Source of the DNA: a virus
Length of the DNA: 30,382 nt
Direction: 5' to 3' (one strand)
Virus record (IMG/VR): IMGVR_UViG_3300024326_000626
Coordinates: 1-30,382 of that record
In this document: positions 3,220-27,470 of the stretch, in pieces
Layout: each line of letters opens with the position of its first letter
Numbering within the stretch: the first letter of the stretch is position 1
Position numbers and translations under genes: made by a program
Notes under the pieces: model-generated
What the model saw: the letters and a program-made list of their open reading frames with translations, nothing else
Databases searched by the model: none
What the model was told of the DNA's origin: nothing

Positions 3220-3576
3220 ATGGAATTATATGTTAAAACGATAGAAGACCCAAATCACAATGTAAATACGGTTCATATTGAGAATGAGATATCACAACTT
3301 ATTACTCAAATTGAGACTATGCTTTTTACAGATAAGGGTACCGTTTTAGGAGAACCTGGATTTGGTGCAAGTTTAGAAACTTTAATATATGAACTGAATG
3401 CAAATGAAGAGCAAGTTAAAGGACTTGTTAAGGAGCAAATAGACATGTATATCCCTTTAGCACAAAAGTATGATACTAGAGTAGATATTACTTTTCAAAG
3501 AGGAGAAATAAGAGATATTGCAAACTTAAATGTAATAATTGACTCTCAATATTTAGTTGGGGTCAGGATAGAATAA
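3220..3576 (+). CDS. 25: Baseplate wedge protein gp25
   Basis: At 118 residues it is close to T4 gp25 (132). It carries the gp25/TssE signature: a helical N-terminal half (IENEISQLITQIETML), then LFTDKGTVLGEPGFGASL (about 35-52), where the E-P-G-F-G element corresponds to the conserved EPR-type loop, then a C-terminal strand region on the pattern of R-G-E-I-R-D. In T4, gp25 joins gp6 and gp53 in each of the six wedges and helps nucleate the sheath; the type VI secretion homologue is TssE. The following gene is gp6, the expected partner, 11 bases downstream. Confidence 0.88.
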   Translation: MELYVKTIEDPNHNVNTVHIENEISQLITQIETMLFTDKGTVLGEPGFGASLETLIYELNANEEQVKGLVKEQIDMYIPLAQKYDTRVDITFQRGEIRDIANLNVIIDSQYLVGVRIE

Positions 3577-10989: not shown

Positions 10990-13900
10990 ATGGACACACA
11001 AAACTCATTAAATAGCGTTATTAGACAGTTCACTCAAATGAACACAAATGCTTTAGAAACTTTTGAAAGAATTAATCAAGCAGTAACAACTCAAGATGAA
11101 TCAATAACAGTTTCCATAGATTTATTTGGTACTCCAGACGAGGATGGTAATACTACAATAAAGACTTATCAAATACCTTCTTTTGGTTTCTTAAATAAAG
11201 AAATGAAAAGACTTGAAAACAATATCAAAGCGCTTAGTGGTGTTGGTACTTCAAATGCAACAGTTCAATTACCTGATGGCAGCTTTCAAAGAGTTATCAC
11301 TAAAAAACTAAAGACACCTGCAAATGATTTAGAGGTTATTGATTTACCAACTTCTTTTGAAACTACAGATAATGACTTTTTTGAAGATTTTCTTAACCCT
11401 TTATTAACTGTAAAATTTAATGTTAGTGGTCAAATTGACACTGATACTGAAAGGGTTTTAGTTAAAAGATTTATATTTCCAGCTGAAGATGATTTTGCAC
11501 CTTCTTATTTTGATGACAATTACAAAAATTTAGAAGAGTTAGATTATGAAACTGCTCTTGGTGATATTATTTCAGATGGTGTAAATATAACAATTGATGA
11601 GCAAGTAAGAGATTTACCTTTTAAATCTACTCAATATTATGGTGGGTTTGATGTTATCAATGTAGAAAATGTATCTAGAACTTTTCAAGTTGATGGAGAA
11701 GATGTTACAAGAACCGTAAAACTATTTACACTTAATAAATTAACATATAATGATGGGGAAAAGTCACTAAAAGATACCGAGCTTTTAAGTATAGGAGATA
11801 ATCTTCTGGTTAATTCTGGTAACAATAGCACAAGGTATGAGATAACTAACATTTATTCAGGTACAAGTCAACTGGAGTTAAAGCTGATAGAAGGATTTGA
11901 CTCTGTATCTATTGGTGCTGATGTTTTAAAAATTTATAAAAATTTAGAAGATTCAGTAAGCCTAAGTATTAATGTAGGTTTTAATGAAAGACAAATTGTG
12001 TTCTTTAAAGCAATTGACCCTTCTTCTAAAATTATAGCAGAAAACTGGTCACCTGGTGTTGGGTTCTATTCAAACGAATTAACAATTGAAGAGGTTGATG
12101 GAAGTACTTCAACTTTAGCAGCATATTATAGAAATAATGTAGCTGATTTCGGACAATTTATTAAATCACTTAAAGAAGATTTCATTCCACCTGCAACTGT
12201 AGGAATTGTTCCAGATCCAGTTGAATTATTACCAGGTAATTTTTCAGTAGTTCAAGTAAATACTCACTTAACATCTAATGATGCATTCGATTCTATCAAA
12301 AAACTATCAAGTGATAAAGTTACTGTTTTAGAATCAATTAAAAAATTAGATGATACTATTTCAAATAAAAGATCCGAGATAGCAACTAAGAAATACACTT
12401 CTAAAATAGAGCAAAATAAAGATAAAAATAATCTTAACTCTCTAATTGAAAAAAGAAGTGGAGAAGCAAAACTTTATACTTCAATAGTAAATCAAATTCA
12501 AAGTATTAGTACTGACCAAGGTATAGCTGATATCAGTGCAAAATATAGAGTTAGAGGTTTTTGGGCTATTCCAGAAGCAAAAGATAACGAAGATACTTTA
12601 CCACAAGAAATAGTTCAATTTAAGATTCAATATAGATATGTTTCATCTAGCGGAAAAACTTCTAACATAGAGCAAATTCCTTTTGAAACAAATGGACAAA
12701 CTACAACAGCAAGTTTTTCTAATTGGAATCAATATGAAACCCCTGTTAGAAAAAGACTTAGAGATTCTGTAACAGGTAAATATGTTTGGGTTTCTGAATC
12801 AGTTGAAGATGGACAAGAAATAAACTTTAACCAATTAGATATTCCAATTAATTTAGGAGAAAGTGTAGAAATAAGAATAAAATCTATTTCTGAAGCAGGA
12901 TATCCTTCTAACCCTTTAGAATCTGATTGGAGTGAAATTACTAAAATTGATTTTCCAGAAGGTCTTTTAGATACTACAAATATAGTTAATTTAATTGAAG
13001 AAAATTCTAAAGAAACTACATTTGTAAAATTATTAGATGAATTAGAATCTAAAGGTTTTTATGAGCATATTGCACAATCTGTTATTGCTAACGAAAAATA
13101 CTTTGCGCATGGTGCTAAAGATATTAATTCTGGATTCTTATCTGGAGAGCAAACACCAATAACATTATTTGATAAATTAATAGACCTTCAAAAAGAAATA
13201 GAAACTCTTAGAGGAGTTATAGAAAATGCAGAAGGAGAATTAACAGTTACTTTAGTTGATGAAGAAGGAGCTACTACTCAGATAGAAGCTAACCAAACAG
13301 CAAAAGTATTTGCTGGATATTATGTTGATGAGGTTGCAGACTTAAATATTAAAAAAGGTCATATTGTTACTAAGACTTTTAAACTTTTATTAGAAAATAC
13401 AAAAGCGACAGATTTAGAATTAGTTGCTAGAGTTATTGGTAAAAGATCCGATGCAGTTTATCATTCTTCTTCTACTGGAACTGAAGTTGATTTTGAAATG
13501 GGAACAAATGATTTTGCTGTTACACCATCACCAACACTAGCATCAAGAGTTGAAAATGATACTTATTATACAGTAGAGGCTAAATATGACTTAGTGCCAA
13601 TACAATATCAAAATATGTCAAGTGCCGAGGCAGCTGCTGAAATTTTCAATAATGCATCGCCTTTTCAATCAGCACAGAGAAAAGGTCAATTTATTTATAG
13701 CAGATATATGGATGTTTCTGGTGAAAACCCACTTTATGCAGTTGCTCCTTTAGATTATCTTAATGGAACAGACCTTACTTTAACTAATAACTCAAATAGA
13801 TTCGAATACTTTGGTATTGCAGGAGCTGGTTCTGTAGGAGCACCAAGTTCTGACTTTATATGGGACGGTTCAACTGGAGTTGTAACACTTGGGTCACTAA

Positions 13901-24609: not shown

Positions 24610-24978
24610 ATGAAAACGTTTGTAAAATACTTGGAAGAAAATCAGGTAACTGAAAAAGAAATACAACTTCTTAATGAAGGACTTCAACAAGAATGGACGC
24701 CTGAATTAGAAGCTAAAGTTGATGAGGCAGTTGATTCTTTTTTAAATGAATATCGTGATGGAAACGGAGATTTAGATTTAGAAAGGTTTAATGAAGAAAT
24801 GACAAATGAAGGTCTCTTCGGTTCTATTGTTGGTGGTCTTACTGGTTTTGCTTTAGGAAAGTCCATGGGTAAAATGATTGCTAAAGTTTTAGGTATTGAC
24901 AAAGGTGTTCTCTATGATTTATTAACTTCAAGACTTGTAGGTACCGCTCTAGGTGCTACTATTGGAAAAAGATTTTAA
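24610..24978 (+). CDS. Small glycine-zipper protein
   Basis: This is a 122-residue protein. The N-terminal 65 residues are acidic and helical (FVKYLEENQVTEKEIQLLNE). From about residue 70 a Gly-rich amphipathic region begins (GLFGSIVGGLTGFALGKSMG) and ends in RLVGTALGATIGKRF, with Gly every four residues, as in glycine-zipper membrane segments. Such segments occur in pore-forming or ejected phage proteins and in holin-like proteins, but none is recognised here. It may be a short-lived membrane protein or an internal virion protein. The start ATG is preceded by TATAAATT, and the stop is separated by one base from the resolvase start. Confidence 0.6.
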   Translation: MKTFVKYLEENQVTEKEIQLLNEGLQQEWTPELEAKVDEAVDSFLNEYRDGNGDLDLERFNEEMTNEGLFGSIVGGLTGFALGKSMGKMIAKVLGIDKGVLYDLLTSRLVGTALGATIGKRF

Positions 24979-24979
24979 T

Positions 24980-25645
24980 ATGAATTTTATTACTATCGAC
25001 TTTTCTCTTAATTCTCCAGGAATCTGTATTTTTAATGATAAGAGTAAGAAGTATCACTTTATTTCGTATGTTAAAAAGAATGGTTCTAAAAAAGCTATAA
25101 AATTACAAGAAGAATTAGGAATGTTAGAAGAGGTTACTCTTGTCTTTCAACCTAATTTTGAAAAAGAGTTAGATTATTCTAGTGTAGAGTTAGGTAAAAT
25201 TAAAAGGTATGATGTTATGTCCAATGACATTATTAATCTTATTACACAAAACACTTTTAAAGATGATGGTTTCATGATTGCTTTTGAAGGAGTCAGTTAT
25301 GGGTCTAAAGGAGGAACTAATAATATTATTGATATGGCGAGTGCTGCATCTATTCTCAAGATAAAACTTCTCAAATACTTTAAACCCGAAGATATTCAAA
25401 CAGTTTCTCCTGCAACAATTAAGAAACATGCTGGAAAGGGCAATATGAATAAGAGAACTCTTTGGGATGTCTTTGTTGAAAATAGAACAGGAGAGGAATT
25501 TCTAGAAGAGAATAATTTTTGGAAGTTCTCGAAAAAACTTGAAGTGGGCAAGTCTGTTCCTAAACCCTTTGATGACCTTGTAGATGCCTTTTATCTTAAT
25601 AGTTTGTTAAGAACCCTGAAAGCTAATCTAACCTCTCCTTCCTAA
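24980..25645 (+). CDS. RuvC-type Holliday junction resolvase
   Basis: The resolvase has 221 residues from the chosen ATG at 24980, which lies one base after the previous stop. A longer in-frame start at 24953 would overlap the upstream gene and add eight residues before strand 1, so it is rejected. The RNase H-like fold motifs are present: strand 1 with D7 (FITIDFSLNSPGI), E103 (AFEGVSYGSKGG), and DDLVDA with D199 and D202, the last acidic pair of RuvC. SPATIKKHAGKGNMNK (143-158) matches the RuvC segment P-x-x-V-K...G-x-G-x-A-K. RuvC cuts four-way junctions symmetrically; in T4 that job belongs to the unrelated gp49 (endonuclease VII). The likely role is debranching of replicated DNA before packaging. 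It is the last gene of the structural block. Confidence 0.82.
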   Translation: MNFITIDFSLNSPGICIFNDKSKKYHFISYVKKNGSKKAIKLQEELGMLEEVTLVFQPNFEKELDYSSVELGKIKRYDVMSNDIINLITQNTFKDDGFMIAFEGVSYGSKGGTNNIIDMASAASILKIKLLKYFKPEDIQTVSPATIKKHAGKGNMNKRTLWDVFVENRTGEEFLEENNFWKFSKKLEVGKSVPKPFDDLVDAFYLNSLLRTLKANLTSPS

Positions 25646-25775
25646 AGACTTAAGTTATATAACACGTAGCGGCTTTTGTTTCAAAAATAATAAACTTTTT
25701 TTAAAATAAATGCCCTCAGATTTTTATTTGTCGTTTATTATGATTATATTTATACTATAACAAACTAAAACAAAG
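25646..25775 (+). other. Non-coding gap after the resolvase gene
   Basis: This is 130 bases of AT-rich sequence between the resolvase stop and the first tiny gene. It contains a 10-base palindrome GTTATATAAC (25654-25663) and a T-tract (25695-25702), but no convincing stem-plus-T terminator. I find no exact match to the Bacteroidota TAnnTTTG promoter element. Its 3' end is the first, imperfect copy of the A-rich start cassette. Confidence 0.4.
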
Positions 25776-25779
25776 ATGA
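25761..25779 (+). repeat. Start-codon cassette, copy 1 (imperfect)
   Basis: CAAACTAAAACAAAGATGA differs from copies 2 and 3 at the first positions and in CC versus CT. The ATG inside it is the start of the 57-residue gene. All three copies end in ACAAAGATGA, so this sequence probably serves as a translation initiation context. Confidence 0.7.
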
Positions 25780-25949
25780 TTAAAAGAAAAATAGCCGATT
25801 GGATGTATCGCTTCTGGTATAAAAACCACACTCATATATGGGTATATGAACCAGCATATGTGTTAAAATCAAATAGTGAAAACGTCAAATGTAAATTATG
25901 CGGTAAAACAACTACTAAAACAGAATTATTTAAACCAAAACAAAGATGA
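25776..25949 (+). CDS. Small CxxC protein
   Basis: This 57-residue protein begins MIKRKIADWMYRFWYKNHTH. It is basic and aromatic-rich (three Trp, five Tyr/Phe in the first half) with one CKLC pair near residue 40 that could form half of a zinc knuckle or a disulfide. It ends FKPKQR. The function is unknown. Its stop overlaps the start of the next tiny gene (ATGA), and both starts lie in the repeated A-rich cassette, which supports real translation. It probably belongs to the group of small accessory genes T4-like phages keep between functional blocks. Confidence 0.55.
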   Translation: MIKRKIADWMYRFWYKNHTHIWVYEPAYVLKSNSENVKCKLCGKTTTKTELFKPKQR

Positions 25950-25950
25950 G
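25932..25950 (+). repeat. Start-codon cassette, copy 2
   Basis: AAACCAAAACAAAGATGAG is an exact 19-base match to copy 3 at 26068-26086. It covers the last codons of the 57-residue gene and the ATG of the next gene. Confidence 0.85.
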
Positions 25951-26089
25951 TTTAGCAACATTATATTTAATTATTCAGACACCATTAGTAACAGCTTCAT
26001 TTTGCTTAGTAGCTTATCAAACTAGAATTTACTATAAACAAAAAAAGTTGCTCAAAGAAATGATAGAAAACCAAAACAAAGATGAGTGA
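25946..26089 (+). CDS. Small single-span membrane protein
   Basis: This is a 47-residue protein. After MSLAT comes a hydrophobic span of about 22 residues (LYLIIQTPLVTASFCLVAYQ), then a basic tail (RIYYKQKKLLKEMIENQNKD). The layout is typical of small phage inner-membrane proteins with the positive tail in the cytoplasm. The function is unknown; holin-like or host-takeover roles are possible. It starts inside the previous gene's stop (ATGA) and ends in another copy of the start cassette. Confidence 0.55.
   Translation: MSLATLYLIIQTPLVTASFCLVAYQTRIYYKQKKLLKEMIENQNKDE
26068..26086 (+). repeat. Start-codon cassette, copy 3
   Basis: This is an exact 19-base repeat of 25932-25950, again ending in an ATG (26082). 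Here the ATG opens only an 8-codon frame (MSETTLSR, stop at 26106-26108) that ends 17 bases before the tRNA-like gene. This may be a remnant of a third small gene cut short by loss or by insertion of the RNA genes. Confidence 0.8.
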
Positions 26090-26125
26090 AACAACTTTGT
26101 CTAGGTAGCATATAAAAATAAATAC

Positions 26126-26257
26126 GGGGAGTTGGCCAAATGGCAAGGCGACTATTCTTATTGAACCCAGCCCTGATCAGGCTAGAAGAATAAGCAGATC
26201 ACTTATTTGGAAAAAGGTGTAGAATAGTAGATGATGGTTCGATTCCGTCACTCCCCA
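26126..26257 (+). tRNA. tRNA-like gene with about 60-base insertion in the anticodon arm
   Basis: The ends are those of a tRNA. Acceptor GGGGAGT (26126-26132) pairs fully with ACTCCCC (26250-26256), followed by A as discriminator base. T8 and G9 are followed by a D arm GCC (26135-26137)/GGC (26147-26149) with loop AAATGGCAA. The T arm is GATGG (26233-26237), loop TTCGATT, CCGTC (26245-26249). CCA is not encoded. The anticodon stem ACTAT (26151-26155)/ATAGT (26224-26228) is present and extends to 8 bp (26151-26158/26221-26228), but its loop holds 62-68 bases instead of 7. The total is 132 bases, against 71-76 for a class I tRNA. The 3' side of the loop reads T-GTA-G-A in the right register for a GUA anticodon, which would require removal of 26157-26217. 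Identity is unresolved. It may be intron-containing, a tRNA-derived regulatory RNA, or decayed. Confidence 0.65.
26159..26220 (+). other. Structured insertion within the tRNA-like gene
   Basis: Two hairpins lie inside the insertion. AGCC (26169-26172) pairs with GGCT (26180-26183), leaving loop CTGATCA. GAATAAG (26188-26194) pairs with CTTATTT (26202-26208), with one G-T pair, leaving loop CAGATCA. Both loops are 7 bases and share GATCA, so the loops could pair with each other through TGATC/GATCA. An A-rich linker GGAAAAAGGTGT leads back to the anticodon stem. The segment is far too short for a group I or II intron core. Confidence 0.45.
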
Positions 26258-26260
26258 GCT

Positions 26261-26343
26261 CTTAGATAGGTTATAAAAGACCGAACAACGAGGCGTCAGC
26301 AATCCGCAATTATCCACGCCTACAACTGAAAGGAGAGTCTAAG
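26261..26343 (+). ncRNA. Predicted structured RNA downstream of the tRNA-like gene
   Basis: A closing stem CTTAGAT (26261-26267) with GTCTAAG (26337-26343) encloses a 6-bp hairpin AGGCGT (26291-26296)/ACGCCT (26316-26321) with a 19-base loop. AGAC (26278-26281) could pair instead with GTCT (26337-26340). The segment is more GC-rich than its surroundings and has no open frame of note. It begins four bases after the tRNA-like 3' end, so both may be cut from one transcript. The order stem, hairpin, stem vaguely recalls the P7-P8 part of group I introns, but no complete core is present. Confidence 0.4.
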
Positions 26344-26476
26344 TGGGATATAAACAAAACAAAATAAAGATATATAAATTAATATGGAAAACAGTAAATT
26401 AGTTAAAATTACTGGGCTTTAAAACATAATAATTTAGGCTTCATTAAGAAAGCAATCTTTAGTCAGATAGACTCCC
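26344..26476 (+). other. Leader stretch between the structured RNAs and the gp32 operator
   Basis: This stretch is AT-rich. It includes an A-rich segment similar to the start cassettes (TAAACAAAACAAAATAAAGA, 26351-26370) leading to an ATG at 26384 that opens a 12-codon frame (MENSKLVKITGL, stop at 26420-26422). Small hairpins are possible at GCTT/AAGC (near 26435-26451) and AGTC/GACT (26461-26473). The short frame could be a leader peptide or chance. Confidence 0.3.
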
Positions 26477-26558
26477 TTAAAAAGCTCATATTTAAACAAT
26501 TTAAAAGTTTTCTATATAACTATAAGTAATAAACGTAAATTAAAGTAAATTAAAGATT
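26477..26558 (+). promoter_or_regulatory. Putative gp32 autoregulatory (translational operator) region
   Basis: Five TTAAA motifs occur in the 82 bases before the gp32 start (26477, 26492, 26501, 26540, 26550). The last two are part of a perfect tandem 10-base repeat GTAAATTAAA (26535-26544 and 26545-26554). In T4, gp32 represses its own translation by binding cooperatively to an unstructured AU-rich stretch with UUAAA repeats next to the start codon, nucleated by an upstream pseudoknot. The same arrangement here suggests the same control. A pseudoknot is not obvious by eye. Confidence 0.5.
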
Positions 26559-27470
26559 ATGAGTGAATTTAACATTTTTAGTATTGGTGTAGAAGATATC
26601 GATACGCATGAACAACCACAAAACACAGGCACAAATACAATGTATAAGCCTACTGCGGATGATGGTAAAGACGGAACCTATAAGGCTCTTATTCGTTTTG
26701 TACCTAACGTAGAAAACCCAAGAAACAGTTTAATTAAGAAATACGTCAACTGGCTAACAGGCCCTGATGGTGAATCAAAATTAGTAGATTCTCCAAGTTC
26801 AATCGGTGAAAGTTGCCCAGTAGCAGACGCTTTTTGGAAATTAAGAAAATCAGATTCAGCGGTAGACCGTAAAGCTTCTGATAAATTAAAAAGAAGAGAG
26901 CAATATGTTTCTCTTGTAAAAATCATCAAAGATCCACAGCATCCTGAATTAGAAGGAACTTACAAGATTTTTAAATTTGGTTATAAAATCAAAGAAAAAA
27001 TCGATGCTGAATTAAAGCCTAATTTCGGTGACCCAACGCAAGTGTTCGATTTATTTGAAGGTAAGAATTTTGAATTAGTAATTACTAGACAGAATGATTA
27101 TAATAATTATGACACGTCTAAGTTTTCATCTTCAAAATCAGCAGTTGTTATTGGTGAAAAGTCTAAACCAGCGGAAAGAGTAGAAGAAGATATGGCTACT
27201 ATTAAAACAGAACTAGAAGGAGCACCTTCACTTGCATCTTTTGAGTATAGAGCATGGGATGAGCCAACTAGAGAATTCGTTAATAGCGTTATCAAAATGT
27301 ACTTAAATCCAGGAGACGCAATGGATAAAGTTACAAACCAAACTTTTGATAAGCCAGCTGCAAAAGCAACTCCGAAAACAGAAGCTGCAGCTGCCCCGGA
27401 AACAACACCAACCGGAAGTGGAGAATCTAGTGCTGACTTAGAATCTTTTTTGAATGACCTCGAAATCTAA
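26559..27470 (+). CDS. 32: Single-stranded DNA-binding protein gp32
   Basis: At 303 residues it matches T4 gp32 (301). Matching segments are YKALIRFVPN (41-50), GESCPVADAFWKL (83-95), SLVKIIKDPQHPELEGTYKI (118-137), FKFGYKIKEKIDAEL and FELVITRQNDYNNYDTSKF, all in T4 order. The C terminus is acidic (SADLESFLNDLEI), the tail that recruits replication and recombination partners, and is preceded by an Ala/Pro/Thr-rich linker. The protein coats single strands during replication and repair. The T4 zinc site (His64, Cys77, Cys87, Cys90) is not kept: C86 is the only cysteine in the whole protein. The primase gene starts inside its last codons, so the two are coupled. Confidence 0.9.
   Translation: MSEFNIFSIGVEDIDTHEQPQNTGTNTMYKPTADDGKDGTYKALIRFVPNVENPRNSLIKKYVNWLTGPDGESKLVDSPSSIGESCPVADAFWKLRKSDSAVDRKASDKLKRREQYVSLVKIIKDPQHPELEGTYKIFKFGYKIKEKIDAELKPNFGDPTQVFDLFEGKNFELVITRQNDYNNYDTSKFSSSKSAVVIGEKSKPAERVEEDMATIKTELEGAPSLASFEYRAWDEPTREFVNSVIKMYLNPGDAMDKVTNQTFDKPAAKATPKTEAAAAPETTPTGSGESSADLESFLNDLEI

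Follow-up and report, generated by a model that had tools for sequence, protein, structure and literature searches.

In bacteria, the Y RNA YrlA attaches a tRNA-like module to another structured module, and in eukaryotes the tRNA-like elements of the mascRNA/MALAT1 type act as RNase P maturation signals, do not decode, and are cut off. The acceptor/T arm is the usual substrate of RNase P, and U33 is universal in decoding tRNAs. GOLLD and ROOL are ornate RNAs of phages and prophages that form homo-oligomeric cages (PMC12286853). In OLE and GOLLD, the preservation of a palindromic loop by covariation has served as an argument for intermolecular kissing loops (PMC12286853).

Our study analysed a 30,382-base IMG/VR contig, called here, at its full length, the window. 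Its gene content is that of a T4-like phage: genes for the tail and baseplate, for a primase, for a RuvC-like resolvase (24953-25645), and, at 26559-27470, for a single-strand binding protein (ssb) of the gp32-like kind. A preliminary description had pointed to a tRNA-like gene with an insertion in its anticodon arm at 26126-26257, to be checked with ARAGORN, with Infernal against Rfam, and by covariation among related phages. Beyond that description, we identified a 3' four-way-junction domain, permuted forms, and palindromic loops, and our best reading is that this odd tRNA with an insert is a member of a new class of structured phage RNA. The existence of a bipartite RNA class whose structure is under selection in both parts is nearly certain. 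No model in Rfam 15 matches the junction or the whole RNA, the tRNA-like half being the only part that matches a family (RF00005), and we found no description of this RNA in the open-access literature; an earlier report in subscription papers is possible. Between the RNA and ssb, at 26380-26520, lies a second conserved non-coding stretch of the type GATATATAA..ATGGAAAAC..GGAC..GGTTCATA, which is also present in T4-like relatives without the tRNA-like RNA (L007, L012, L017, L018, L020, and L021) and is possibly an ssb leader used for autoregulation.

The tRNA-like domain and the junction that follows it

The Rfam tRNA model RF00005 matches 26126-26257 on the plus strand with 47.3 bits (gathering cut-off 29; E=2.6e-07 for the whole window), and this is the sole Rfam match within the whole window. 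The alignment spans the full model (1-71) and places 67 bases as an insertion in the anticodon arm, which bears out the tRNA-like gene first noticed there. The 132-nt domain, counted with its discriminator A, has all the arms that had been described, all of them on the plus strand: an acceptor stem in which GGGGAGT (26126-26132) pairs 7/7 with ACTCCCC (26250-26256); a D arm, GCC-AAATGGCAA-GGC (26135-26149), as placed by the Rfam covariance model; an anticodon stem extended to 8 bp in the fold, between ACTATTCT (26151-26158) and AGAATAGT (26221-26228); and a T arm, GATGG-TTCGATT-CCGTC (26233-26249), with 5/5 pairs, one of them G-U. The acceptor 3' strand, the discriminator A (26257), and a single spacer G (26258) make up 26250-26258, and no CCA is encoded. 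The fold of 26126-26257 is more stable than that of shuffled sequences (z=-2.17; 4 of 200 shuffles at least as good). With ARAGORN the outcome was divided: default settings report nothing, whereas the mode that allows introns places a tRNA-Thr(tgt) here, with identical coordinates and an intron of 59 nt.

Relatives were gathered through the neighbouring ssb and RuvC genes of other contigs, which recovered the same locus in close versions (L005, L006, and L011) and in more distant ones (L010 and L022). Most of the relatives fetched match RF00005, with inserts of 67-74 bases and with differing arm sequences; the scores of these homologues in other viral contigs reach 48.9 bits in L005, 49.9 in L011, 47.8 in L010, and 56.5 in L022. 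Every fetched relative also has, directly after the tRNA-like domain, a conserved 3' stretch of the form CAGCTCTTAGATAGGTT..AACCGAACAACGAGGCGT..ACGCCTACAA..CGAAAG..GGAGTCTAAGTGG. Sequence patterns for this stretch yielded first 20 and then 117 viral stretches, together with 21 GTDB genome contigs, and 113 distinct junction copies were analysed. The extent first given, 26126-26257, therefore holds for the tRNA-like part, but the conserved unit actually runs to 26345.

The added part is a four-way junction at 26259-26345 (plus strand), which starts one base past the discriminator and is laid out as P1-UA-P2-GAACAACGA-P3-UACAA-P4-AGAG-P1', on the evidence of a covariance model (R1), covariation, and folding. 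P1 is a helix of 8 bp between 26259-26266 and TCTAAGTG at 26338-26345, with one U-U mismatch; it is followed by the P2 hairpin (26269-26282), the invariant joining strand GAACAACGA (26283-26291), the P3 hairpin GGCGU..ACGCC (26292-26320), whose sequence is nearly invariant, and the invariant joining strand UACAA (26321-26325). In the family layout of the junction, the strand between P1 and P2 is written GUA. R1 was built from a seed of 16 sequences from which the window's clade was left out, and it scores the window at 53.8 bits (E=1.7e-11) at 26259-26345; the window thus has the four-way junction with both characteristic joining strands. Within the seed, 98.2% of cells are paired and 53 are double-changed, against 15.5 after shuffling (0/500), and this signal is lost when the partner strands are slid. 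The 74 distinct R1 matches, in an alignment fitted to the model, contain 216 double-changed cells against 62 shuffled (0/500). The covarying helices are P1 and P2, and unconstrained folding of single members recovers P1-P3. Because the fold energy of the window's junction alone is not unusual (z=-0.88), support for its fold is comparative. P3 appears to be constrained by sequence, since a looser scan gave just two near variants, L312 and L404, and a second copy in L197 has C-G in place of U-A; the search pattern itself, however, accounts for some of this invariance. Covariation in P3, which was sought by the same looser scan, was rejected, each of the two near variants losing one P3 pair. A group I intron in 26258-26500, with AGTCTA/TAGACT read as P7, was also considered and rejected: the Rfam intron families give no match up to E=10, and what looked like an S strand at 26456 does not share the conservation of the domain.

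About 60 distinct loci, mostly viral contigs, show this same contact between the two domains. A tRNA-like domain in which 6 or more of the 7 acceptor positions pair, and which has a D stem and a T arm, precedes 70 of 100 junction sites (62 distinct). N73 plus exactly one base stands before P1 in 54 of the 62 distinct members, a few of which are poorly placed at the 5' end, and six more fall within one base; the arrangement in the window, A73-G26258-P1, is typical of the family. The base after the discriminator is almost always G, followed by the C of P1, and CCA is almost never encoded. Among 42 distinct acceptor/T-arm sequences, 97.4% of cells are paired, a percentage inflated by a choice of members made partly on pairing, and 182 cells are double-changed against 59.7 shuffled (0/500), a count that this choice does not inflate. 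Independent RF00005 scores lie above the cut-off in L005, L010, L011, L022, L282, L285, and L295. The covariation check thus found hundreds of compensatory changes maintaining the acceptor, T, P1, and P2 stems. The ends of the domain had been described as maintained and not decayed, a view to be abandoned if homologues had lost acceptor or T-arm pairing; we observed the opposite, with both stems kept through compensatory changes.

Modular variants and distribution

Our study identified several arrangements in which the two domains are combined differently. L184, L187, and L276 carry a circular permutation of the junction around the tRNA-like domain, so that the 3' strand of P4, GGAG, and P1' lie upstream of it and P1 and P3 downstream; between L187 and L276, P1 shows a compensatory change from CTCTAA/TTAGAG to CTCTGA/TCAGAG. 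In these permuted forms, whose upstream part lies about 150 bases before the junction match, RNase P would split the transcript into two RNAs, as in permuted tmRNA. L197 (3226-3467, minus strand) carries two junction copies inside the anticodon arms of tRNA-like domains, within a cluster of 20 ordinary tRNA genes. L183 has a promoter-like sequence of its own upstream and keeps the tRNA elbow. In L182, L186, L232, and L272 there is no recognisable tRNA-like domain and other hairpins stand in its place, a plain hairpin in the case of L272. Several Patescibacteria (Kaiserbacteria, Berkelbacteria, Uhrbacteria, and others) have the junction alone, preceded by a sigma-70-like promoter, followed by a terminator-like hairpin, and set among housekeeping genes, near secA, rpoB, or the gene for ribosomal protein L25. 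Because these four loci and the Patescibacteria do without the tRNA-like part, the class can dispense with it.

Stand-alone junctions that look like small RNAs were observed in L279-L281, L284, L286-L288, L290, L293, L294, L298, and L299, most of them from Patescibacteria. Single-stranded, C-rich sequence and a terminator-like hairpin lie downstream of them, with secA adjoining in L281 and L290, and they are possible anti-Shine-Dalgarno small RNAs. The junction is rare in the genomes sampled, with 2 of 192 in Patescibacteria and 1 of 148 in another phylum, each sample including the genome that led there.

In phages the RNA is an accessory gene. Exactly one copy was found in each of 6 of the 23 viral records searched, with carriers of up to 459 kb; the other 17, several of them of 175-205 kb and many of them close relatives, lack it. 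Because it is missing from many close relatives, its benefit must be conditional. The carriers are many phages from marine, freshwater, and other sources, mostly known as environmental sequence, and tRNA clusters are a frequent location. Cultured phages hardly carry the RNA: the only plausible case is Tetrasphaera phage TJE1 (27.5 bits with R1, P2 missing), which we kept as a probable divergent member. Weak P3-hairpin matches in CUS-3, IME10, Kumotta, and Erwinia pEa_SNUABM_4 were rejected, the three loci scored reaching 18-19 bits, and a put-type antitermination RNA, considered from the CUS-3 match, was dropped once CUS-3 failed.

Other unusual elements were observed near some members. Just upstream of the family member in L010, at about 3280-3440, there is a second odd tRNA-like sequence with a large D-arm insertion, an acceptor stem CGCGTAG..CTACGCG, a T arm GAGGG-TTCGACT-CCCTC, and an anticodon-like CCTAGAA loop. 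Directly upstream of the member in L163, at about 12830-12960, a second tRNA-like sequence has a long anticodon-arm insert (GGGGAAA..GGGGTTCGACTCCCC) and no junction of its own. In the same tRNA clusters, L167 and L180 contain another conserved structured non-coding sequence, AGAGGTAGTGAAGCTACAATGATATAG..CCTCTATATCGTAGTAACCCC..ACCTCTCT, which lies ahead of the final ordinary tRNA on the upstream side of the element.

The insert and its palindromic loops

The insert is variable, with a median of about 55 nt where the anticodon loop would be, and a stem persists at the anticodon position, in most cases with 5/5 pairs. In the window it contains two hairpins on the plus strand. Hairpin 1, AGCC-(CUGAUCA)-GGCU (26169-26183), displays a palindromic heptaloop at 26173-26179; its stem covaries among L005, L006, and L011 (GCC/GGC against GUC/GAC), and the heptaloop recurs on unrelated stems of other members. 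It is absent from the window's minimum-energy fold, and its support is comparative. Hairpin 2, GAAUAAG-(CAGAUCA)-CUUAUUU (26188-26208), is conserved in sequence in L005, L006, and L011 and so carries no covariation information; this region is paired otherwise in the minimum-energy fold. Its loop (26195-26201, CAGAUCA) is complementary to that of hairpin 1 (GAUCA/UGAUC).

Palindromic loops recur across the family. In tests on clustered sequences, phylogeny being handled by the clustering only, 21 of 40 clusters contained palindromes of the type N-CUAG-N' where 3.5 would be expected, and 11 of 40 contained UGAUCA where the expectation is 1.25, frequencies that none of 400 dinucleotide shuffles reached in either case. 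The bases flanking CUAG are complementary at 21 of 28 sites against 9.6 expected (0/20000), and these palindromes take all four forms (ACTAGT, TCTAGA, GCTAGC, and CCTAGG). The heptaloop YUGAUCA stands on at least ten unrelated stems and is sometimes swapped for loops of the UAAUUA type, which are likewise palindromic. Many clusters carry neither or just one of the CUAG-type and UGAUCA loops. Because loop palindromy is preserved by covariation, the pattern suggests, at about the level of an even guess, that the RNA associates with itself through kissing loops, as in the phage RNAs GOLLD and ROOL; palindromes in the loops of GOLLD covary in a similar way (PMC12286853). A local closing pair is another possible reading of the N/N' pair next to CUAG.

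Interpretation and comparison with known RNAs

The explanation that we prefer, with a probability of roughly 0.55, is a stable, self-associating, non-decoding phage RNA whose 5' end would be made by host RNase P and whose junction would bind a conserved partner. As part of this explanation, and with the same degree of confidence, we read 26126-26345 as the gene of a single non-coding RNA, about 220 nt long and with two structured domains. It would be transcribed together with its neighbours or from an upstream promoter. Host RNase P probably cleaves just 5' of 26126, which we infer because the acceptor/T arm is intact. No aminoacyl charging is expected. Copies would pair with each other, or the arms of one copy with each other, through kissing loops, with the tRNA-like domain and its insert providing scaffold and contact surfaces, and the junction with its invariant joining strands would be a candidate binding site for the partner. 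The protein with two S1 RNA-binding domains (PF00575) encoded at 235-984 was considered as this partner and rejected: it is conserved in T4-like relatives with or without the RNA and is equally frequent in both. As a structural RNA in the infected cell, the molecule might work in a way comparable to GOLLD and ROOL. A fuller proposal, in which homo-oligomers form via self-complementary loops on a tRNA-shaped scaffold, the four-way junction is a receptor, host tRNA enzymes carry out maturation, and Patescibacteria have retained or taken up the junction of this class as an independent small RNA, is tentative, with odds well short of even.

The tRNA-like domain might alternatively be a mere handle for processing and stability, with the insert adding stability and the junction acting as the functional part that binds a protein, the ribosome, or a ligand. 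This reading is somewhat doubtful. It fits a junction that is the constant part of the RNA, down to its two invariant joining strands, the plain hairpin that substitutes for the tRNA-like domain in L272, and the Patescibacteria, where, with flanking promoter-like and terminator-like sequences, processing would be unneeded. However, recurrent insert loops would be superfluous for a handle, and the tRNA elbow is kept in most members, even in some with a promoter-like sequence of their own, such as L183. A decoy for, or inhibitor of, host tRNA-targeting factors (anticodon nucleases or toxins) or the translation apparatus is unlikely. A tRNA shape kept with its anticodon region replaced, and a patchy, single-copy presence in phages, often in tRNA clusters, would suit it, but the anticodon loop that such nucleases cut is missing; the heptaloop does resemble an anticodon loop (C-U-GAU-C-A), yet its position 37 is C and not a purine, and it is not universal.

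The preliminary description had also listed a new minimal intron among its readings. A tRNA-Thr(UGU) gene that decodes after some splicing activity removes a 59-nt intron from its anticodon loop is, in our judgement, quite improbable. In intron mode, ARAGORN models a full tRNA-Thr(tgt) with a 59-nt intron in the window, one with a 60-nt intron in L011, and tRNA-Leu(tag) with a 70-nt intron in L022; a canonical Thr-UGU loop can indeed be drawn for the lineage to which the window belongs. This does not extend across the family: of the members run in intron mode, only the window's clade and L022 clearly allow a canonical loop after excision, the bases of the would-be spliced loop are not conserved, and the predicted anticodons are arbitrary (Thr, Leu, Val, and Pro). 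Of 35 insert clusters, only 12 have U at what would be position 33, and L256 is among the members without it. In nearly every member with the tRNA-like domain the 3' end continues into the junction, and in L197 the insert is replaced by the junction domain. The Rfam group I and II intron families have no match in 25640-26600 at E up to 10, in agreement with the earlier exclusion of such introns. Measured against decoding tRNAs, the RNA has the arms of the covariance model and lacks a 7-nt anticodon loop with U33; its 3' end encodes no CCA and is joined to the junction, any later trimming or CCA addition being invisible in sequence. Because there is no conserved U33, no CCA, and no free 3' end, the RNA is likely tRNA-shaped without decoding, a reading already offered for this locus and supported further by the compensatory changes in its stems. 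The idea of a tRNA pseudogene in decay, broken up by random sequence, could draw on the lack of a default ARAGORN call, but it is refuted by compensatory covariation in all tested stems, by the fixed spacing to the junction, and by presence in diverse phages, leaving it hardly credible.

These results describe an RNA as constrained as a riboswitch or a ribozyme, present in phages of up to 459 kb and in several lineages of Patescibacteria. With default settings, tRNA finders miss it, and once introns are allowed it is wrongly labelled as an intron-bearing tRNA; an odd tRNA gene in a virome can thus be a module of another kind of RNA. It is a defined and synthesisable target for structure work and offers a direct test of whether small phage RNAs, too, build RNA-only assemblies.

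Like GOLLD and ROOL, the new RNA is phage-borne, often lies near tRNA genes, and has a likewise unassigned function; with GOLLD it also shares a conserved 3' region, a variable 5' region, and self-complementary loops with covarying palindromes. It differs from both in size (about 200-250 nt against several hundred) and in its real tRNA-like domain with an unrelated 3' junction, and their Rfam models have no match in the window or in 22 further loci searched. GOLLD and ROOL form homo-oligomers, and for the new RNA palindrome enrichment and covariation point only indirectly to oligomers joined by kissing loops. With tmRNA it shares permuted gene forms and a tRNA-like domain in which the anticodon stem leads on into a further module; in contrast to tmRNA, it has a full D arm, an insert of only about 60-90 nt, and an extra domain past its 3' end, and it has neither a tag reading frame nor a chain of pseudoknots. 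A tmRNA or permuted tmRNA was accordingly rejected, ARAGORN -m finding none in six members and Rfam giving no tmRNA match in the window region. YrlA likewise combines a tRNA-like and a second module, but in the new RNA only the 3' strand of the acceptor continues into that module; the YrlA covariance model finds nothing in this region of the window, even with E allowed to reach 10, and the weak sub-threshold matches in L303 fall on ordinary tRNAs. tRNA genes with anticodon-loop introns have their insert at the same position, and ARAGORN models the window as one of them, whereas the new RNA lacks a conserved U33, a free 3' end, and a group I/II signature, and has a second conserved domain. Use of RNase P, as proposed here, would be shared with mascRNA/MALAT1, but the tRNA-like domain appears to stay part of the phage RNA. 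The new RNA belongs to none of these families; in setting and in its possible mode of action it comes nearest to GOLLD and ROOL, and in its use of a tRNA-like module to tmRNA and YrlA.
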